Under the pieces are notes generated by a model that saw only the letters and a list, made by a program, of their open reading frames with translations, did not search any database and was not told the DNA's origin. Below are positions 16,901 to 55,696 of a DNA stretch of 64,000 nt, piece by piece (position 1 is the first letter of the stretch; each line of letters starts with the position of its first letter). The position numbers were made by a program, and so were the translations under genes. The stretch is from Liolophura sinensis (taxonomy: Eukaryota; Mollusca; Polyplacophora; Chitonida; Chitonidae), in assembly GCF_032854445.1 (NCBI RefSeq), contig NC_088300.1, positions 42,320,984-42,384,983 of the forward strand. Direction: 5' to 3'.

Positions 16901-19900
16901 TTTATTTCAGACTTTAAAAAATCTTTTTAATTTTGTTACATTCTATTTGAGTAAAATTTTGAGTCAACAAGCCCAATCTCAAGTTGGAAGGGAAATAGTC
17001 TAATGCAAAGGTGTTGACAAAAATGTCAAACTAACGTTGAAAAAAATTCTGTCTTGGGAGTATAAAGCCTGGAATTGGCCAACGACACTCCAGACGTGGT
17101 TAGTACACGGCAACTGAAAAAGTCAGGAATTGATATGGCACCATACCTGTCCTTTTACAGAAAGCATCTGTTGTGACTTCAAAGTGCTCTCGTGAACTGT
17201 GATTTGTCAGATTCCTCCATATTTTCTAACCGAAAATGTTGATGTACCAAAATGAATAACTATTGTGAGTGTGTTTACATGCGAGTGTGTTTACATGTGA
17301 GTGGGTTTACGTGTGAGTGTGTTTACATGTGTGTGGGTTTGCATGTGTGTGGGTTTACATGTGAGTGGGTTTACATGTGAGTGGGTTTACATGTGAGTGG
17401 GTTTACGTGTGAGTGGGTTTACGTGTGAGTGTGTTTACATGTGCGTGGGTTTACATGTGAGTGGGTTTACATGTGAGGGTTTATTATTTCCTGATAGGGA
17501 ATACATGTGACGATTAATGCCAGGACAGAAGATGATGTGGATGTGGATGACATACTGAAGCAAGTGGCAAAGTCTTCAGGCAGTAATTATAGTATTCACA
17601 AAGAGAAAGCCAGGCCTGCTCCTGCCCCAGCCCCTGTGGTTAGTTCTTCATTAATCTTCCTTCATGTTTTTTGATATAAGTTTTTTTTCCTGTTTAATCA
17701 CTTTCAGCATGAACTGAATAAACAATCTACCATTTGGTATTAATTCTAGTATAATTTTATATCTCTAAGTTAGATTTCTTAAGCACAACCAGCCTATTTA
17801 TACATGTATGGTCTGAGCTATTCAAAGTTGAAGTTGTAAGTTGACTGTAGACTGAAGTTGAATGTAGACAAATGGCATGTCAGTCTTTGATAGACTTCTT
17901 CTGTAGGGAGCTCGAGAGTTATGCTGAAGTGGACCTTAGACCATTTCTGTTGATCCTTGTGGTTGACTTACTATTGTTTTATTTAGGGTCTGTCTACAAG
18001 AAAACAGCAGCTCAGAGAGAGATTGATTCCAAGTCTCGTGATAATTTCTGGGCACAGACAGAGGTAAGGATCAAAGGAAAGGAGCAATGTTTACCTCTCA
18101 TTTCTATTATTTTTTTATTTTTGTTTTTTTTTTTCATTTTTTGGCTCTTGTGATGTCACAATCTCACGTTAGTGTGAATTCACATCTCTGTTCAGCCTTG
18201 TTTGATGCGTGTACATTTTCCTTTTTAATCCACCTGATTCAAGCAAATTGTACTGACAAGTTTTATTTTTCAGCACGATTCACTTTTGACTGATACATAT
18301 ATAACCTGTCAGCATGATATGTTTGGTGTAGAATTGGGTCAAAATCATTCATTTACTCTTGTGACATATAACTCAACATTACATGGTTCAAGTTTACAAC
18401 CAAATAGTACACAAATAGTACACTCCCTTAGACAAGCCAATTCTTTGGAGATGCACAGCCATCAGGTTCTGGTGCAGTTGTTCGAGGATTTCTTGTGTAA
18501 GGAGGTATTGTTTACCTGCAAACAGGCAGAGGAGAAGAGACGTCAGGAGGAAGAGAGAAAGAGGCAGAAGGAGGAACAGGCCAAGCTGGACAAAGAGAGG
18601 AAGGAACGAGAGGTACCACACAGTTTTACAGGCCCTCTTTTACAAATCCTTATAAATCCATTCTTCGAATTAAACTTTTCTTGTAGTTCATGTTGCTTCG
18701 TGGTGCCACAGTCTAGTGACAACATTATTTATGAAAACGTTATGGAAAAGATAACTTACAAAGTTTTGTGAAAGTGGTTCAAGATTTAAAAGTTGTTATT
18801 TCTGTTGGTCGGTCAGTCAGTAAGTCAGTTTAAGTCTGAGCAATTCACAAAATTTTGGATCTGAATGATGGCTTGAGTTGTTATGGTGCTATATAATATA
18901 TGGACGTCGCTTCATTCAGATCCAAACGTATGTGAATTGCTCAGATTTAAACTGACTTACTGGCTGACTGCAGTCATATATGTTTTGAGTTGTTATGGTG
19001 CTATATAATATATGGATGTCACTTATATGACAGCAGCCAGCATTGTGATGGGAGGAAACCAGGCAGAGCCCGAGGGGAAACCCACAACCATCTGCAGGCT
19101 GCCGACAAACTTTCTGACATACTCTTGTGATACTTACCGATAAGTTCCGTTGTTTAATATATTACTAAATGGTATGTTGAGTTGCCTCTACCATATGCTC
19201 TGACGAGTAGTAGATAATGCTAATGTAAACTGCAGCTATTATATCATGGTTTCATTTCGTCTTTCAGCTGAAGGAGACAAAGGAAAGAGACAGGCGAATG
19301 AGTGAGAAACTGAAGAATGTTCAAGAACAGAAAGCAGCAGAACGAAAAGCAGATGCAAAAGACAGGACTGCTGACAAACAAAAATGGGTATGTTGGAAAT
19401 GGTGTGTAGGGTAGAGATGTTTGTCTCTCAAATATTATACATGTATATCCACCATACATCATTGATTTTTGTCACACAAAAAAAACCCCAGTATTTCAGG
19501 AATGGTTCTTAAGTGATGATGTAGATACTCTCCATACATTGATTTTTTGTGAAATGTGGAAATTGAGTGTATTGTGATCAATATGTGTTCTTGGTATGAA
19601 AAGAAACTTGCTTTTTACATAAATCTGAAATCTATGTACAGTATATATTTATATCTACATGTAATTTATGCTCTTGTGTTCAAGGAGCGTGAACAAGCAG
19701 ATACATACAAAGATGACGAGGAAAGAAGACATCGAGCAGACTCTGCGAGAAAAGAGAGAATTGCTGTAAGTTGCTAATCTCATGTGTTCTTTGTGTTATT
19801 CATTTTAAAGGAAATTATATCTCCAGGCTACTTGAGGCTAGCAAAATACTAAAACGTTCACGGAGCACTTGTTGAACATCATTTGTCTTGAGCTAAGAGT

Positions 19901-40022: not shown

Positions 40023-43000
40023 ATGGAAGAGGTATCTGAATGGAGCGTTTTCTGGTCTGAGGATTTTTTTTTTGCCTGCCGGTATTTCATCATTTTCACC
40101 GGTTTATTGACGTTCACTTAAAGTTTCATTTTCGTTCGTATTTCATTTTCCTGAATTCATAAAGATGCATGTAGTCGGACAGTTTCAAAAAGGGTATTCA
40201 CATGAAAATATTGTGCTGTTTTGCTTGTGCTCTTAATAGCCGGTCTGTCTAAACCTAACCTGTAGGCCTAAACTTGTCCGAATATTCTGACGTAAACTTG
40301 CAGCAAATATTGTGATAGTCCTAATGGCATGTTAGAGTCAGAAGTCGTTTCATTTGAAACAGTGAATTGCTTATGTCACACTTGTCAAAAGACATCGCTC
40401 CGAGAACACCCGGACAAACACGAGGACTGCTAACAAAAAACCGTTGATGGACAAAAGCATAACAAATCACCACCAGCAACTCCAAGAAAGATAAAGCGAG
40501 GAAGGCTCCCGTTTGTCCACATGTGACGTAAGCAGTTAGTGCATACACACTGGCGGCCATTTCGGTAAGAGTGAAAGCTTGAACAGAGAGACTTTGTTTG
40601 TCAAAATATCATTGACAGTTGATGAACAATGAAGAAATAAGAGAATAGATGAGGAGAGAAAAACTATAGGTGCTTGAATGTAGCTAAAATAAGGGGATAA
40701 GTTGGTTAATTTAGGGTCAGCAACGTTGTTTAGAAACTCTTAATTTTTTCAGATGAAACAACTGCAGCATGCCATTAGAGCTATCACAATGTCTATTGCA
40801 AGTTTAAGTTGGAATATTCCGACTAGGCCTAAACCACAGTCTGAACTGTCATCGGTTCGAGATTGGATGAGTAGATTACAGCTCCTGTGATAAACAGACT
40901 TAAAAGTGAGATTGCCCAACATTAAATGATGTACCAAAATTGGATTCGGCATGCTAATCCATGTGAATAAAGAACCCATGAATGTTAGCATTAGACACTG
41001 TGTCCATGTAGACATGGACATGATGTCATCATTTTAGCCATGAATGTCAGAATTTATATATCAGGACTGTAAACATTTACCACATTGTGCCCTGCTTGTA
41101 AATAATGTTAAAAGCAATGACATCTCCTAAGGTTAAAGGAGAAGAAAAGATAAAAATCATGCCAAAATCAGATGAAAGTGCCGGAACACTTATTTGCGGT
41201 CTTTAATATTTTTTTCCATTTTTTCTTTCTGTAGAAAAGGGTACTTGAAAATATTTTTGTATGGTGGGTTTTTGGGACCACAATTTGCTAGATATCGTCT
41301 TTGCATAATAATGTTCTAAATAAGGATGTGATGCATGTCTAATAAATGTATTTCAATGTAAATTTGATGTTTAACACATGCATTTAATCTGAATTGTGAT
41401 AATATTTATAGATATGATGAAAATCCAGGTTGAACACATTTGTTATCTAAAAAAAGACCATACTCTAATGCAAATAAATTTGTTAAACATGTGTTGCATC
41501 CTCATTTATAACGTTGTTAACTAAACACAAGATATATCAAGAGTTGGTCCCAAATACCAACCATGCATAAATTATTTTCATGTGTCTTTTCCTCTTTAAA
41601 GAAAAATCGAAAAAAATATTGATGGCCACATTTACAACTAACTTTTTCCAATCTTTCATCTGAACTTCATCTAATTTTTGTGTTTTTAGCTGTAACAGTG
41701 TGTCATAAATTGCTTTTCTATTGCCATGTCAGAAAAGATATTCTGTTAATCTGTTACAGCCTCTGAAGATCAGTATCCGAGATGTAAATCCTCACATTGT
41801 GTGCTCACTATGTGCTGGTTATTTTATTGATGCCACAACGATTACTGAATGTCTTCATACATGTGAGCAATCACATATTTCTTTGTACTCAGTTTAATCA
41901 TTTTACATACTATGTAAGATGTATCTGGTGAAGGTCTTGTCTTTCATGTAATTAATAATTAATTTTTATGTTGTTGATAGAGTACATGTGTTTAAACTTG
42001 CTGTGAAACACAAAGTTAGAAGTGCAGTAAATGGTACTGTTTTGTTACTGTTCATTTCATGTGTCAATGCTGAAGTAAAATAGTTCATTTGTTGATTATA
42101 AACAGTAAGCACATATCTTCTGGTAGACTTAAGCTGTGTGTATTTGATGGGATGAGCAGTTTTGAAAATGTATGCCTTACATCCTCATGTTGATTTTTAT
42201 AACTTTTCTGATGTTTTCAGTCTGTAAAAGCTGTATAGTAAAGTATCTGGAGAGCAGTAAGCAATGCCCACAGTGTAACATCAAGATCCATGAGACTCAA
42301 CCCTTGTTCAACTTAAGAGCTGACAGGACTTTGCAGGATGTTGTTTATAAGCTGGTGCCAGGATTGTTTGAACGTATGTCTGATAATGATACCACAAGTA
42401 TGTCATGGAACTGTCAAAACTGTTTACTATTTCTTTTCATTTCTGCATTCTTCTTTAAACATTTTGTTTAGGTGAGTCTATGTGGAAATTTGTGATCATA
42501 TTTATAGGTTATTGGATTGTATGGTCCTGTATGGACGAGTCCTGGGCGCCCAGGAAAGGGATGAGCTTGCGAGTTTATACACTATTCTATACCCACTTGT
42601 CAAAAACGTAGGTAAATAAACTCGAACGCTAAACAAATTGGGTAAAACCATGCTAATTATTTCATATCGCATAAGAATAGCGGATAGCCGGTTGCGGATG
42701 AATATGGAATACTGAATGGAGCATTTTCATTGGCTGATGGAAAATTGGGTCAGGCTTACGTGGCTGAAGCGGTATTTTACAAACAGAAGTGTAAAGAAAA
42801 GGAATGCAAACGTTTCAGTGAAAACAGACTAGTGTAATCTTTACAGGATGAGGACGAAAGAGAAGTAGAGTTTGTTGACAAAGTTAGCTGATTATCCTTG
42901 GGATTCTGTGCGGAAGTTGATGGCATCAGAGTTGTGAAAACTTTGTTTGTGTGCACTTGAACTGGCCGGCCAGGGAGTGGAAGCGTGGGAGATGGTTGAC

Positions 43001-46000
43001 TGAAGGCGCGATTGCCCTGAAGTAAACTCGACATTTGCTTCTTCTCTACGTGATCTAATTCAGAATCATGCTCCTGGATGCCAGCAAGGGATTTGTGTCC
43101 GGTGACCTGCATAATTTTATGTGGTGTGACACCAGATTTTACAAGGGTTTTGGACGGTTGTTTTTCGGACCGAGTGATTAGTTTTCCGGCCTTTCAGTCC
43201 AGCGGCCTCGGCTGCCCTCTTCATTAGCTCTCCCAAACAACCAGATTCTTTACTAGATTCCCCTCTAGCTCACCCAGCATCAGGTTTACCAGATTCCCCT
43301 CTAGCCCACCCAGCACCAGGTTTGCCAGATTCCCCTCTAGCCTACCCAGCACCAGGTTTGCCAGATTCCCCTCTAGCCCATCCAGCACCAGGTTTGCCAG
43401 ATTCCCCTCTAGCCCATCCAGCACCAGGTTTGCCAGATTCCCCTCTAGCCCACCCATCACCAGGTTTGCCAGATTCCCTCCAGCCCACCCAGCACCAGGT
43501 TTGCCAGATTCCCCTCTAGCCCACCCAGCACCAGGTTTGCCAGATTCCCCTCTAGCCCACCCATCACCAGGTTTGCCAGATTCCCCTCTAGCCCACCCAG
43601 CACCAGGTTTGCCAGATCCCCCTCTAGCCCACCCAGCACCAGGTTTACCAGATCCCCCTCTAGCTCACCCAGCACCAGGTTTGCCAGATCCCCTTCTAGC
43701 CCACCCAGCACCAGGTTTGCCAGATTCCCCTCTAGCCCACCCAGCACCAGGTTTACCAGATTCCCCTCTAGCCCATCCAGCACCAGGTTTGCCAGATTCC
43801 CCTCCAGCCCACCCAGCATCAGGTTTACCAGATTCCCCTCTAGCTCACCCAGCACCAGGTTTACCAGATCCCCCTCTAGCCCACCCAGCACCAGGTTTGC
43901 CAGATTCCCCCCCAGCCCAACCAGCACCAGGTTTGCCAGATTCCCTCCAGCCCACCCAGCATCAGGTTTGCCAGATTCCCCTCTAGCCCACCCAGCATCA
44001 GGTTTGCCAGATTCCCCTCTAGCCCACCCAGCACCAGGTTTACCAGATTCCCCTCTAGCCCATCCAGCACCAGGTTTGCCAGATTCCCCTCTAGCCCACC
44101 CATCACCAGGTTTACCAGATCCCCCTTTAGCCCACCCAGCACCAGGTTTACCAGATTCCCCTCTAGCCCACCCAGCACCAGGTTTGCTAGATTCCCCTCT
44201 AGCTCACCCAGCACCAGGTTTACTAGTTCCCCTCTAGCTCACCCAGCACTAGGTTTACCAGATCCCCCTCTAGCCCAACCAGCATCAGGTTTACCAGATT
44301 CCCCTCTAGTCCACCCATCACCAGGTTTACTAGATTCCCCTCTAGCTGAAGCAGTATCAGGTTGCTTGATGATAGATTGCTCCATAGCTCATCCAGCACC
44401 AGTGTGGTTGACCAAGAGTTATGCTTTGCCGGGTGGTCTGCGGGGTTATATATGAGCTATAGGTTTATATATGAGCAAATATTCCTTATGCTGTTTTTGT
44501 TGGGGGGTAGGGGTGGGGGGGTTGTTGAATCTGCTCATTTAAACCCATCTACCATTGTTTGATATCAGGTGAAGAGGACAGGAAAGAGGAGTTTTATAGA
44601 TCACGTGGATTGGGAACACTCAAGAAAGAAGGTAATTCCTTGATTTGTCCATACTCTTTAAGAGTACAAGGCTAAACACATGTATCAGTCACCAAGATGT
44701 CATAAATATGGAGATTGATGCTAAATTTCATAAAATGACAGGTCATTACCATAAAGGAGCAAATTCACATTTATTAAGATTGCCTTTTTCTAATCCAAGC
44801 AGTTCTCATGTAATTCATCCAGTGTGGTTTTTTTTCCAGGTTTGATGACCAAGGGCACAGTAGCAGAAGGTAATGATGTTAAATACGACTCTTACAAATG
44901 TTTAGCCATGTTTAGATTGTTTTTCAATTTCTTTATTTCAGCTGTTATGTACTACACTCAAAATATCTACCAGTTTAATTCATTATATTTTAGACATCAG
45001 CAAATGTAATTCCATAAAGAGCTTGCTATGTGCAGTGAATTCAAAAGTTAAAAATAAATATGAAGTCATTTTCTCCCACCCAAATGATACTGATTTAGTA
45101 TCACATTGTTTTGCAGAAGATGAAGGCAGTAGTCACTGTCTGACAAGCTTAGACAATCAACCCCAGGGTCATCGTTACAGACATGATGAGCAGGTGTGTC
45201 TCTGTCTGGAACGTTACAGGTAAGGTCAGACACAAACTTAGCTATCAGTGTGCAAAGTTATGGTGAGGAGGGCTCAGATTTGTGGGTCGCTGTGACTCTC
45301 AAGCTCATCGTCTATGAGGGATTGTGTTCAAATCCAGATATCACTGAGGCATTTAGTCATACAATTTATTTCATAGAAAGTTGTAGAGACCATTGTGAAA
45401 CATCAACTAATCAAACAGATAAACTTATCATAGGTCAGCTCGGCTTGCTCAGCTTCAGCCATGTTTGCTATGTGTGCCATGTTTCTGATTAAACCGTGCA
45501 AAATGTTTTTCATAAATAAATACTAATACACAAATAGTGAAGGTCATTTTTTTAAAATGCAGTGTACATAAGGAGCTTAATAACTGTGAGGGTAAACATG
45601 AAACATTGTAATCAGATATGCCTATTGGTCACGACTGAGGTGTTTAAGTCCCGGTTGAAATGTAATTATTTTGTCATTTTCTCAATTACAAAGTTTGTTT
45701 TAAAGTATAAAAAATTTAGAAGTGGCAAAGTGGGAATTTATTCTAGACAACGATGGGTATGCCTTAACTACCTTTTGAATGAAAATATATTGTCTTTCAG
45801 TCGGCAGTCTGTTCCCCATAAAGGATCATCTCTTTCCCTGAGAGCCCTGGAGAAGAAGTTTGTTCGCTGCTCAGTGCGTGTTCTTGTGTCTCATCTGAAG
45901 GAGATGCTGAGCAGAAAGCTCAATAAGCCAACCAATCTTGAGGTAAAGGAAAATTCCTGACGTTTTCATGTGGTAATAATGGGCATTTTCTTATTTGTCT

Positions 46001-48421
46001 GTGTTTTTTGAGGTTTCATCAGTTACTTCATTGTTCACTTTTGCTGTACACATGATTTTCAAATTTAGTATTAAACATGAAGGTTAACTCTTTTAAATTG
46101 GGATCAGTCCTGAGGCTTGTCATGCCTCATACATTCTGTACTTCCTTACTGTGCCAGATAATACGGTATGCCTAGTGAATGTCAGACGTGTATACTGTCA
46201 ATCCACAGCGGTCATGTCTGGTGTTTTCTGCATGGTTTCTGTAGATGCGCTGCATGACCAACTTCTTGCAACCATATTGGAGTACACTAGCTATACTAGC
46301 CCATGTAAACAGGACTCCAATATGGCTGACAGGCTATTGTTCTGTGAGGGTGATGATGTCATGTGCATGTAACATCACTCTGTTGTGGATGCACTGTTAA
46401 TATGTCAACATAGAGACTGTTCTCCTTCAAAAACACATTGTCATAATATAAATAAATGTGACAAATATTGCTTAATGTGAAGTTTATACAGTTGACAGTA
46501 TTGTGTGGCAGTCTTGTGTTCAGGGGCCAATTCCACCATAGCCCTTTTTGACTTCAGTCATAATTTTAAAAATTTGAAGAATTAATGTATGTGTCAGTGT
46601 ATACCTGTATCTGGAAGTTTTGTGTTCAGAAAGTTGTGTTATAGCTGGAAGTCTTGTGTACAGAGGCTTGTGTTATAGCTGGAAGTCTTGTGTACAGAGG
46701 CTTGTGTTATGGCTGGAAGTCTTGTGTACAGAGGCTTGTTTTATGGCTGGAAGTCTTGTGTTCAGAGGCTTGTGTTGTACCTGGAAGTCTTGTGTTTAGA
46801 GGCTTGTGTTATAGCTGGAAGTCTTGTGTACAGAGGCGTGTGTTATAGCTGGAAGTCTTGTGTACAGAAGCTTTTGTTATAGATGGAAGTCTTGTGTTCA
46901 GAAGCTTGTGTTATAGCTGGAAGTCATATGTTCAGAAGATTGTATTATAGCTGGAAGTCTTGTGTTCAGAAGATTGTGTTATAGCTGGAAGTCTTGTGAT
47001 TAGAAGTTTGTGGTATACCTGGAAGTCTTGTGTTCAGAAGCTTGTGTTATAGCTGGAAGTCTTATGTTCAGAAGCTTGTGTTATAACTGGAAGTCTTGTG
47101 TTCAGAAGATTGTGTTATAGCTGGAAGTCTTGTGTTCAGAAGCTTGTGTTATAGCTGGAAGTCTTGTGTTCAGAAGCTTGTGTTATAGCTGGAAGTCTTG
47201 TGTGGCTAAGAATTAGTGTGTGTGTGTGTGTGAGTGTTTACTTACAGCTGGAAGTCTTGTGTGGAGAAAAGTTAGTGTACATACTTGTGTTTAATTATAA
47301 CTGGAAGTCTTGTGTTTAGAGGCTTGTGTTATAGCTGGAAGTCTTATGTTCAGAAGCTTGTGTTATACCTAGAACTCTTGTATTTCAAAGAATTAGTGGG
47401 TGTGTGTGAGTGTTTACTTACAGCTGGAAGTCTTGTGTGGAGAAAAGTTAGTGTACATGTTTGTGTTTACTTATAGCTGGAAGTCTTGTAAGGAGAAAAG
47501 TTAGTGTATATGTGAGTGTTTGCTTATAGCAGGAAGTCTTCTGGTGAAGAGTTAGTTTATATGTCAGTGTTTACTTACAGCTGGAAGTCTTGTGTGGAGA
47601 AGAGTTGCTCCAGGAAGAAATGTCCATGAAACAGATCTGGCTCATGTTTTGGCACAAAAGGGTACTCTGGTTTTATCTTCTTTTGTTCTGTTCATCTAAA
47701 TATACATTTTGTATATGTGTAGTTTGATAGAACACTAACTCACAATATGAGAAGTGAAGTGAATTGTCGCATTCTCTTTTCATGACAGCAATATTTATGG
47801 TATTTATACTTAAAGGATACATGAAACGCTTTTGTTTTATTTCTTAATGTGCAGATTATTGTAATAATATATAATGATAATATATAACAGTACAAATAAA
47901 TTTTTCAGCTTTCACTGTGGGGGGTAAAAATGGCTTGCCCACACTGTAGTGACACTGTTCACAGGGTTCGGGCCACTTTGGGGTATTCGCCAAATTCCAA
48001 GCAAGATCAAAGATGACGTAATTTCTGAAAAAATCTGACCGTTGACGGAAAATATGCATGAGATATAGGGGTAATTAACAGGTATAAAAATATTCCCCAA
48101 AATGAAATTTTTTTTAACAAAAATTCCGGGGCGTAATTTTTTTCGTTTGACATAGAAACATAAGCTTCGTTTTATAGTTCCTTTTCATGTATCCTTTACC
48201 TATGTCGTGCTATGATTCTTCAAATACAAATGTGCTGCCATTATAATGATATTGCAGCTGTCATCATTTTACCAAAATTGCGGTCAAAAGGTCTTCATTA
48301 TGAGTTACATACAATTTTGTCATAAGTAATGCAATTCTTATTGTTTCAGGAGTCTCCTATGTTACTCTACTACAGATTTAAAACCACCGAGAGCCCATTG
48401 AATTTATCCGAGGATAGGTGA
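40023..48421 (+). CDS. PCGF1: PCGF1 (NSPC1), RING subunit of variant Polycomb complex PRC1.1
   Basis: Exons: tentative 40023-40031 (M-E-E), then 41760-41862, 42221-42373, 44569-44631, 44840-44869, 45117-45219, 45801-45942, 47581-47661, 48350-48421. Phases from 41760 on all agree, giving about 251 aa; human PCGF1 is 259. A C3HC4 RING finger covers about residues 18-57 (CSLC, then CLHTFCKSC, then CPQC). [12 protein letters not shown] and KIHETQPL are close to human PCGF1, as is the long YKLVPGL block. The C-terminal RAWUL ubiquitin-like domain begins near the [10 protein letters not shown] motif and ends LLYYRFK. Family knowledge: PCGF1 pairs with RING1/2 and through RAWUL binds BCOR to ubiquitinate histone H2A. 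The first exon is chosen because its phase and Kozak context fit, but nine coding bases cannot be verified. Two introns are full of minisatellite. Confidence 0.93.
40321..40560 (-). CDS. Possible small hydrophobic protein or alternative 5' exon
   Basis: A 79-aa ORF with an excellent start context; the ATG sits inside a YY1-like AAATGGCGGC motif, often found at transcription starts. Residues about 17-37 form a hydrophobic stretch ([17 protein letters not shown]) that could span a membrane. The rest is unremarkable and I recognise no family. It lies 0.7 kb upstream of HPS1 on the same strand and antisense inside the proposed PCGF1 intron 1. It may instead be non-coding 5' exon sequence of HPS1. 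Confidence 0.2.
   Translation of the reverse strand: MAASVYALTAYVTCGQTGAFLALSFLELLVVICYAFVHQRFFVSSPRVCPGVLGAMSFDKCDISNSLFQMKRLLTLTCH
42777..43255 (-). pseudogene. Crypton-like tyrosine recombinase, C-terminal remnant
   Basis: On the minus strand, first in one frame: [17 protein letters not shown], containing the H-x-x-R of the recombinase active site. A one-base frameshift at about 43155 moves to [17 protein letters not shown], with the second conserved GHKS block, followed by a typical [13 protein letters not shown] tail. This arrangement matches the DUF3504-type tyrosine recombinases of Cryptons and related domesticated genes. Only the last catalytic third is present. It ends at the 36-bp minisatellite and lies antisense in a PCGF1 intron, so it is a dead fragment. 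Confidence 0.75.
43241..44362. repeat. 36-bp minisatellite in a PCGF1 intron
   Basis: About 30 tandem units, each a multiple of three and rich in CT on the plus strand. Units read on plus as repeated [12 protein letters not shown] and on minus as repeated [13 protein letters not shown] few units have lost a base, which breaks both long frames. The array starts directly at the recombinase remnant and ends about 200 bp before exon 44569. Confidence 0.95.
44503..44521 (+). other. G-quadruplex-type G run
   Basis: Runs of 6, 4 and 7 G separated by short spacers, about 50 bp before the PCGF1 acceptor at 44568. Confidence 0.6.
46610..47567 (+). repeat. 34-bp minisatellite derived from a PCGF1 acceptor and exon start
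   Basis: About 23 units, mostly 34 bp, each with TATAGCTGGAAGTCTTGTGT or a near variant. The true exon at 47581 begins right after TTACAG with CTGGAAGTCTTGTGTGG. Units at about 47248 and 47422 copy the intron end, the AG and some 20 exon bases exactly. The repeat is therefore an amplification of this splice site and exon start, and the functional exon is the last unit. Confidence 0.92.
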
Positions 48422-50077: not shown

Positions 50078-51138
50078 CTTTGACTGATGTTTAAAGCCTA
50101 TTCCACAATTTTGACTTTAAAACAACAGATAAAGAAATTTGGTTGCTTCCAAGCCCCTTTGCCCACACCTGGCAAATTTTTTTTTTTTTTTGATTTCAAT
50201 GGGACTGAGTTGGGCTATGTTGGTTCATGTGTCACACTCTAAGACATGATGCACTTAATTATACTGATGGTATAAGTGTTTTTCAAAGACCATTAGACTG
50301 CACAAAGGGCCACACCAGAGTTGTTGAATGCTTACTATTACAAGGCATCACAAACGAGTCTAAGGCTGGATTTGAACCCGTTCCTCACATATCCTAGCCA
50401 TGAAAGCCAATGGGAGCTGGAATCAAAGGTACTATAACACCAGTGATGAGCCCACTGAGGTGAAATATCTTTACACACTTGGACCTTCACGCTAAGTCCG
50501 ACTTCTGGCAGTACATGTCACACACCAGTGTTCATGGGAAACCTTCTCCAGAACAGTGAGAATTCCACCTGAAGTATGGTGGAGAAAACTGGGTAAATTC
50601 CTAAGAAAAACATAGCATCTCACCAGTACCTGGTGCTGGATTTTCACTTGTTTTTTTTACTGAAGGAGAGCACTGCACTCCATCTATCAGTGAGAGTTCC
50701 TCAGCAAGTACAAGTACACTGTTACAAAAAAATCTTCAAAGAAACAACATATGAACTCAAATTTGAAACATTTAATCATATATAGCCTTGAAGTCAATAA
50801 ACTATCATATACATGTATATACAATCTTATCCAAAACATTTGATGTAGTATTTACATAAAACAGATCATGTACATGCCGATCCTTTCTATAAACAGGTTT
50901 CTAGAAGTTAAATGTATACTAGTATCCCATAAGCTTATCAGCCTCTGGGACAAGTGGTGATACCTGGTGACAAGCACATATAAAAAACTATAGCTGTCTC
51001 ATGAGTCATTTGACTTTACAATGTATCATGATGGGAATGAAAGAATGTAGATGTACGTTGACTGTCTGACAGCATCAACCTTCCACATACTAAATAGGGT
51101 GCTTCCTCATTAATTCCCCTTATACAAGGTGAAATAAT

Positions 51139-52105: not shown

Positions 52106-55696
<3,591 letters not shown>

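Follow-up and report, generated by a model that had tools for sequence, protein, structure and literature searches.

Tandem repeats lying over intron-exon boundaries have been described in amphioxus under the name 'mirages', namely in Adh3, BflGb6, BflGb9 (globin), TnC, and PGBD5 (PMC3087553, PMC3902484). For these lancelet mirages, RT-PCR gives normal splicing, length changes are found between haplotypes, and somatic instability has been reported at Adh3 (PMC3087553, PMC3902484). Another related system is intron 7 of the human F7 gene (IVS7) with its variable 37-bp donor repeats, where the most upstream, exon-adjacent site alone is normally used (PMC6627357). Intronic minisatellites of C. elegans tied to alternative splicing (PMC4039745) were rejected as a match, as they are not described as copies of splice sites.

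In this study, we analyzed a stretch of 64,000 nucleotides of the chiton Liolophura sinensis (the window; NC_088300.1, positions 42,320,984 to 42,384,983), which carries an array of this kind in an intron of PCGF1. Like the amphioxus mirages, it consists of boundary-spanning tandem units within an intron, the last junction of the series being the real one (PMC3087553, PMC3902484). Splice signals are likewise kept in many, not all, units, and both acceptor and donor types exist. The host differs, being a mollusc and not a cephalochordate, and so do the dimensions, with 25 units of 34–59 bp in PCGF1 versus 3–6 units of 150–160 bp in BflGb6 and units of 10–72 bp in Adh3. For the amphioxus mirages, normal splicing and length differences between haplotypes are shown, whereas the chiton array is known from the sequence of one haploid assembly. 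With F7 IVS7 it shares the exon-boundary minisatellite and the abundance of decoy splice sites within a single intron, the copy number being variable in F7 (PMC6627357). In contrast, the F7 repeats are human and donor-side, and the PCGF1 array is acceptor-side. Intron gain by tandem duplication, of which potato RdRp is reportedly a case, starts from the same raw material, a duplication with a splice site, but the PCGF1 copies lie inside an existing intron and no new intron was seen. Such gain by duplication of a segment bearing a splice site has been discussed for BflGb13 (PMC3087553).

In the open-access literature searched, no report of mirages in molluscs or chitons was found; as far as these papers show, mirages in a mollusc are new, while the kind itself is already known. 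We consider it very likely that the PCGF1 structure is a minisatellite of the mirage type, derived from the exon and one of a class, with upstream copies that are bystanders over which splicing passes.

Architecture of the array in the PCGF1 intron

The assembled exons gave Pfam matches to RING and RAWUL above cut-off, and PCGF1 was their best match in a PDB sequence search (9v9r_M, E = 3.3e-58); with RAWUL alone, the best match was again PCGF1 (4hpl). Both lines agree with an earlier sequence-only reading, which had assigned the exon to PCGF1. Across the intron, the protein aligns without gaps to BMI1, and there is a small length difference to human PCGF1. The head of the downstream exon encodes conserved PCGF1 RAWUL residues and is old conserved coding sequence, from which the array is therefore derived. 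A second RAWUL-like reading frame on the opposite strand (52947–53390, minus) belongs perhaps to another PCGF gene or a pseudogene.

Units were counted in the intron (45943–47580) wherever the first 15 nt of exon 47581–47661 recurred with at most three mismatches to CTGGAAGTCTTGTGT. This yielded 25 tandem units at 46611–47580, with starts from 46611 to 47530, plus the exon itself at 47581. Tandem copies of the acceptor and first codons had been noted before, but their number had been put at about 23, and the intron had been taken to be filled by them, while the array covers 970 of its 1638 bp. Unit length is 34 bp in 19 of the 25 and 51–59 bp in the remaining six, with the long units nearest to the exon, and TRF reported a 34-bp repeat with 17.4 copies (91% matches) and a 53-bp repeat with 3.8 copies that continues into the exon. 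The features are listed in Table 1.

Table 1. Features of the PCGF1 locus and its repeat array. Positions refer to the window; slashes mark splice sites.
Feature	Position	Strand	Basis
PCGF1 exon upstream of the intron (first part of RAWUL); ends KLNKPTNLE, phase 0; donor GAG/GTAAAG; start predicted from cag at 45798–45800	45801..45942	+	sequence, frame, PCGF1 match
Isolated decayed unit (26th copy) outside the main array, TGGCAGTCTTGTGTTCAG	46505..46522	+	local alignment score 26; 0/1000 shuffles equal
Left-edge trace of a 53-bp parent unit (GAAGAATT from the exon 3′ part, plus intron tail)	46576..46604	+	
17 consecutive 34-bp units, consensus CTGGAAGTCTTGTGTTCAGAAGCTTGTGTTATAG	46611..47188	+	
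8 further units of 59, 53, 34, 34, 55, 53, 53, and 51 bp, adjoining the exon	47189..47580	+	
Decoy junction, site 47247/47248, with all 36 bp (−15 to +21) as in the true junction	47233..47268	+	
Second decoy junction, site 47423/47424, with all 36 bp (−15 to +21) as in the true junction	47409..47444	+	
True PCGF1 exon; acceptor TTTACTTACAG/CTGG; donor AGG/GTACTC	47581..47661	+	sequence, PCGF1 homology
Predicted last PCGF1 exon (ESTALHLSVRVPQQVQVH...)	50666..50785	+	

All 25 copies lie in the intron upstream of 47581, so that the real junction forms the exon end of the series, and 16 of them reproduce the first 15 nt of the exon exactly. A 53-bp unit comprises about 27 nt of intron and 26 nt of exon and spans the real boundary. 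Two units had been said to match the true junction over about 35 bp, and the identity was confirmed over one base more (Table 1). The 34-bp units have only the last few intron bases in common with the true acceptor (TATAG vs TTACTTACAG). At the left edge of the array, the remnant of a 53-bp unit is identical to 47546–47574 at 24 of 29 positions (0/1000 shuffles equal). No 15-mer that starts at or beyond position 13 of the exon recurs in the intron, thus the junction alone was copied. Junction identity and the conserved exon head support the view that this minisatellite was made from the splice site of a PCGF1 exon.

A comparison of the exon match with chance, which the sequence-only reading had proposed, was made with 2000 first-order Markov surrogates of the intron. 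In these, the best single 15-mer match reached 15/15 once and 10–12/15 nearly always; 16 exact copies in tandem are far beyond this, and chance is excluded.

The published assembly of Liolophura japonica, renamed L. sinensis in a correction, comprises 609.5 Mb in 632 scaffolds with 13 pseudomolecules. On one contig of 108 kb (G000:C99), COX1 is matched seven times at a spacing of about 15.5 kb, and the contig is probably a mitochondrial-genome concatemer produced during assembly. A genome-wide search for the PCGF1 array (609,464,459 bases, 632 contigs; one haploid assembly) found it in a single copy, hence it is not a mobile repeat. The sole other match, at locus L002, was rejected as an unrelated 17-bp minisatellite.

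Tandem arrays can be misassembled, as is generally known, but it is extremely improbable that the PCGF1 array arose in this way: the PacBio HiFi reads average 8.3 kb and are longer than the 1-kb array, its units differ among themselves, and other arrays of the same kind are present.

Decoy acceptors and the choice of splice site

The AG before the exon-like part is kept in 17 of the 25 units, which gives about 17 decoy acceptors, and lost in the other eight, so that the claim of an acceptor in each unit was correct for about two thirds of them. Splice sites were scored with an approximate generic matrix not trained on chiton sequences. On this approximate scale, the decoy at 47477 (7.6) ranks above the true acceptor (6.4), two other decoys reach 4.8, and the 34-bp units with AG lie mostly between 1.6 and 3.8 (exceptions are 5.0 at 46883 and −0.3 at 46849). 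Since the score of the true acceptor is not outstanding, its position beside the exon together with the donor must single it out, or decoys are used. The donor of the exon is weak (2.3 by the same approximate generic matrix), and exon definition may therefore be poor. In all 25 cases, reading from a decoy runs into a stop codon in frame before the end of the exon is reached; thus, use of a decoy would give truncated or decay-prone mRNA.

Two decoys share every base with the true site between −15 and +21, and another one scores higher; the decoys might therefore compete with the true acceptor, and PCGF1 mRNA would then fall as the repeat number rises, amounting to a dose control dependent on copy number. 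The stops in all 25 extensions and the weak donor would fit such a control. However, any intron extension of such length would be expected to contain a stop, the AG is lost in eight decoys, the lancelet mirages leave splicing undisturbed, and normal F7 alleles use the exon-adjacent site only, so that we regard competition as unlikely. Slower splicing, alternative transcripts, and a PCGF1 dose set by repeat number had been envisaged in the sequence-only reading; the published cases speak against all three. Going by the published lancelet and F7 work, the spliceosome would most likely use the acceptor beside the exon, and the decoys would be bystanders.

Junction arrays at other exons of the genome

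As minisatellites occupy a large part of introns, a class of such arrays is to be expected. The survey sample comprised 30 kinase and 30 kinesin loci of the same genome, and junction arrays were assessed at 53 kinesin exons. Tandem arrays with a period of at least 10 bp make up 9.1% of the 208 kb around the 30 kinase and 30 kinesin exons, with larger arrays covering 17% of the kinesin flanks vs 1.3% of the kinase flanks. Clear junction arrays were found at two of the 53 kinesin exons (3.8%; about 0.5–13%), and a third is probable.

At the first locus (L042, 773–1529; G000:C8 at about 682 kb), the kinesin exon EAMSINKSLS (EAMSINKSLSALG...) has 11 copies of its acceptor in front of it, in a 64-bp unit that includes about 30 nt of exon. 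TACAG is lost in three of these copies, and the real one adjoining the exon is intact. The second array is of the donor type (L055, 1605–3168; G000:C11 at about 27.413 Mb): a kinesin exon ending in STLMFGQR is followed by at least 20 copies of the donor junction with a 73-bp unit, and the array runs beyond the locus. Its donors are mostly GTACGA, the true one being GTAAGA. At the third locus (L040, about 1–1194 on the gene strand; G000:C9 at about 4.628 Mb), a TSMNDHSSRSHS kinesin exon directly follows a row of about 26 units that resemble strong acceptors (CTCTCTGTTGTCAG/GTATTTT; CAG/GTATTTT). This array is graded only as a probable junction array because the true acceptor may be GTCAG/CAG, 16 nt inside. 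With the same arrangement at other exons of this genome and the published mirages of amphioxus, the notion of an oddity unique to PCGF1 had to be given up.

Other candidates were rejected as mirages: the array at L066 begins about 55 bp past the exon donor, those at L038 and L053 stop short of a junction, and an array elsewhere in the PCGF1 locus (43255–44346, 36 bp × 30.4) has flanks without an exon junction. The latter array is free of indels and open in two frames over long distances. On the minus strand, the ORF 42780–43193 resembles the end of a tyrosine recombinase. A 16-bp × 13.4 array at 17264–17477 (TGTGAGTGGGTTTACA) ends 20 bp short of a likely exon at 17497 and has TACATGTGA in common with it (8/2000 shuffles equal); it is possibly a small mirage.

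Array seeds were found at 1129 of 87,000 bases, from which about 1.4 junction arrays are expected for the 106 ends of the 53 exons. The two to three seen are no clear excess over random birth of minisatellites, which speaks against junctions as preferred birth sites through a process linked to transcription or splicing, as does the location of 17 or 18 of the 20 larger kinesin-locus arrays away from any tested junction. Counting PCGF1, there are three or four junction arrays of both acceptor and donor type, which would agree with preferred birth, but we consider this doubtful. Rather unlikely, too, is a more far-reaching proposal, by which mirages form a genome-wide class in chitons, with several per cent of exons affected and introns containing 5–30 near-identical competing splice sites, and by which the number of repeats adjusts how much correct mRNA is made at some genes including PCGF1.

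Origin and meaning of the array

The block of 34-bp units is flanked on both sides by sequence of the 53-bp type, which makes 53-bp duplication followed by the 34-bp form the simplest order and suggests that expansion went from 53 to 34 bp. A junction-spanning segment, about 27 nt from the end of the intron and 26 nt from the exon head, would have been tandemly duplicated into the intron, where 53-bp units multiplied first; a shortened 34-bp form would then have expanded and been partly homogenised. Coding selection and splicing would act only on the copy joined to the rest of the exon. The upstream copies, a third of them without AG, would be drifting intronic bystanders, and the PCGF1 array is one of a class in the chiton genome.

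Within the 34-bp units at 46611–47368, the variability of the 15 columns derived from the exon is about one third of that of the remaining 19 columns (0.047 vs 0.154; permutation p = 0.014), and this frame is the best of all 34 rotations. The effect is weak, and pure drift would not obviously predict it. Such low variability could mean that the exon-like part is retained because it has a function, such as enhancing splicing or serving as a decoy, or that it is renewed by conversion from the exon. Yet the p value comes from column permutation over related copies at one locus, chosen post hoc, and the pattern could be mutational, which leaves retention or conversion improbable. The array is real and was correctly read from the sequence; it is most likely neutral, a by-product of repeat growth that probably does no harm.

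For PCGF1 itself, nothing special is shown, and effects on dose are possible but unsupported. Mirages are not confined to lancelets. An intron in which many splice sites are nearly identical is a test of how the spliceosome chooses one of them. Should such arrays prove as frequent in the chiton as the small sample implies, a single RNA data set could suffice to measure the effect of position, the decay of decoy products, and any effect on dose at many loci.
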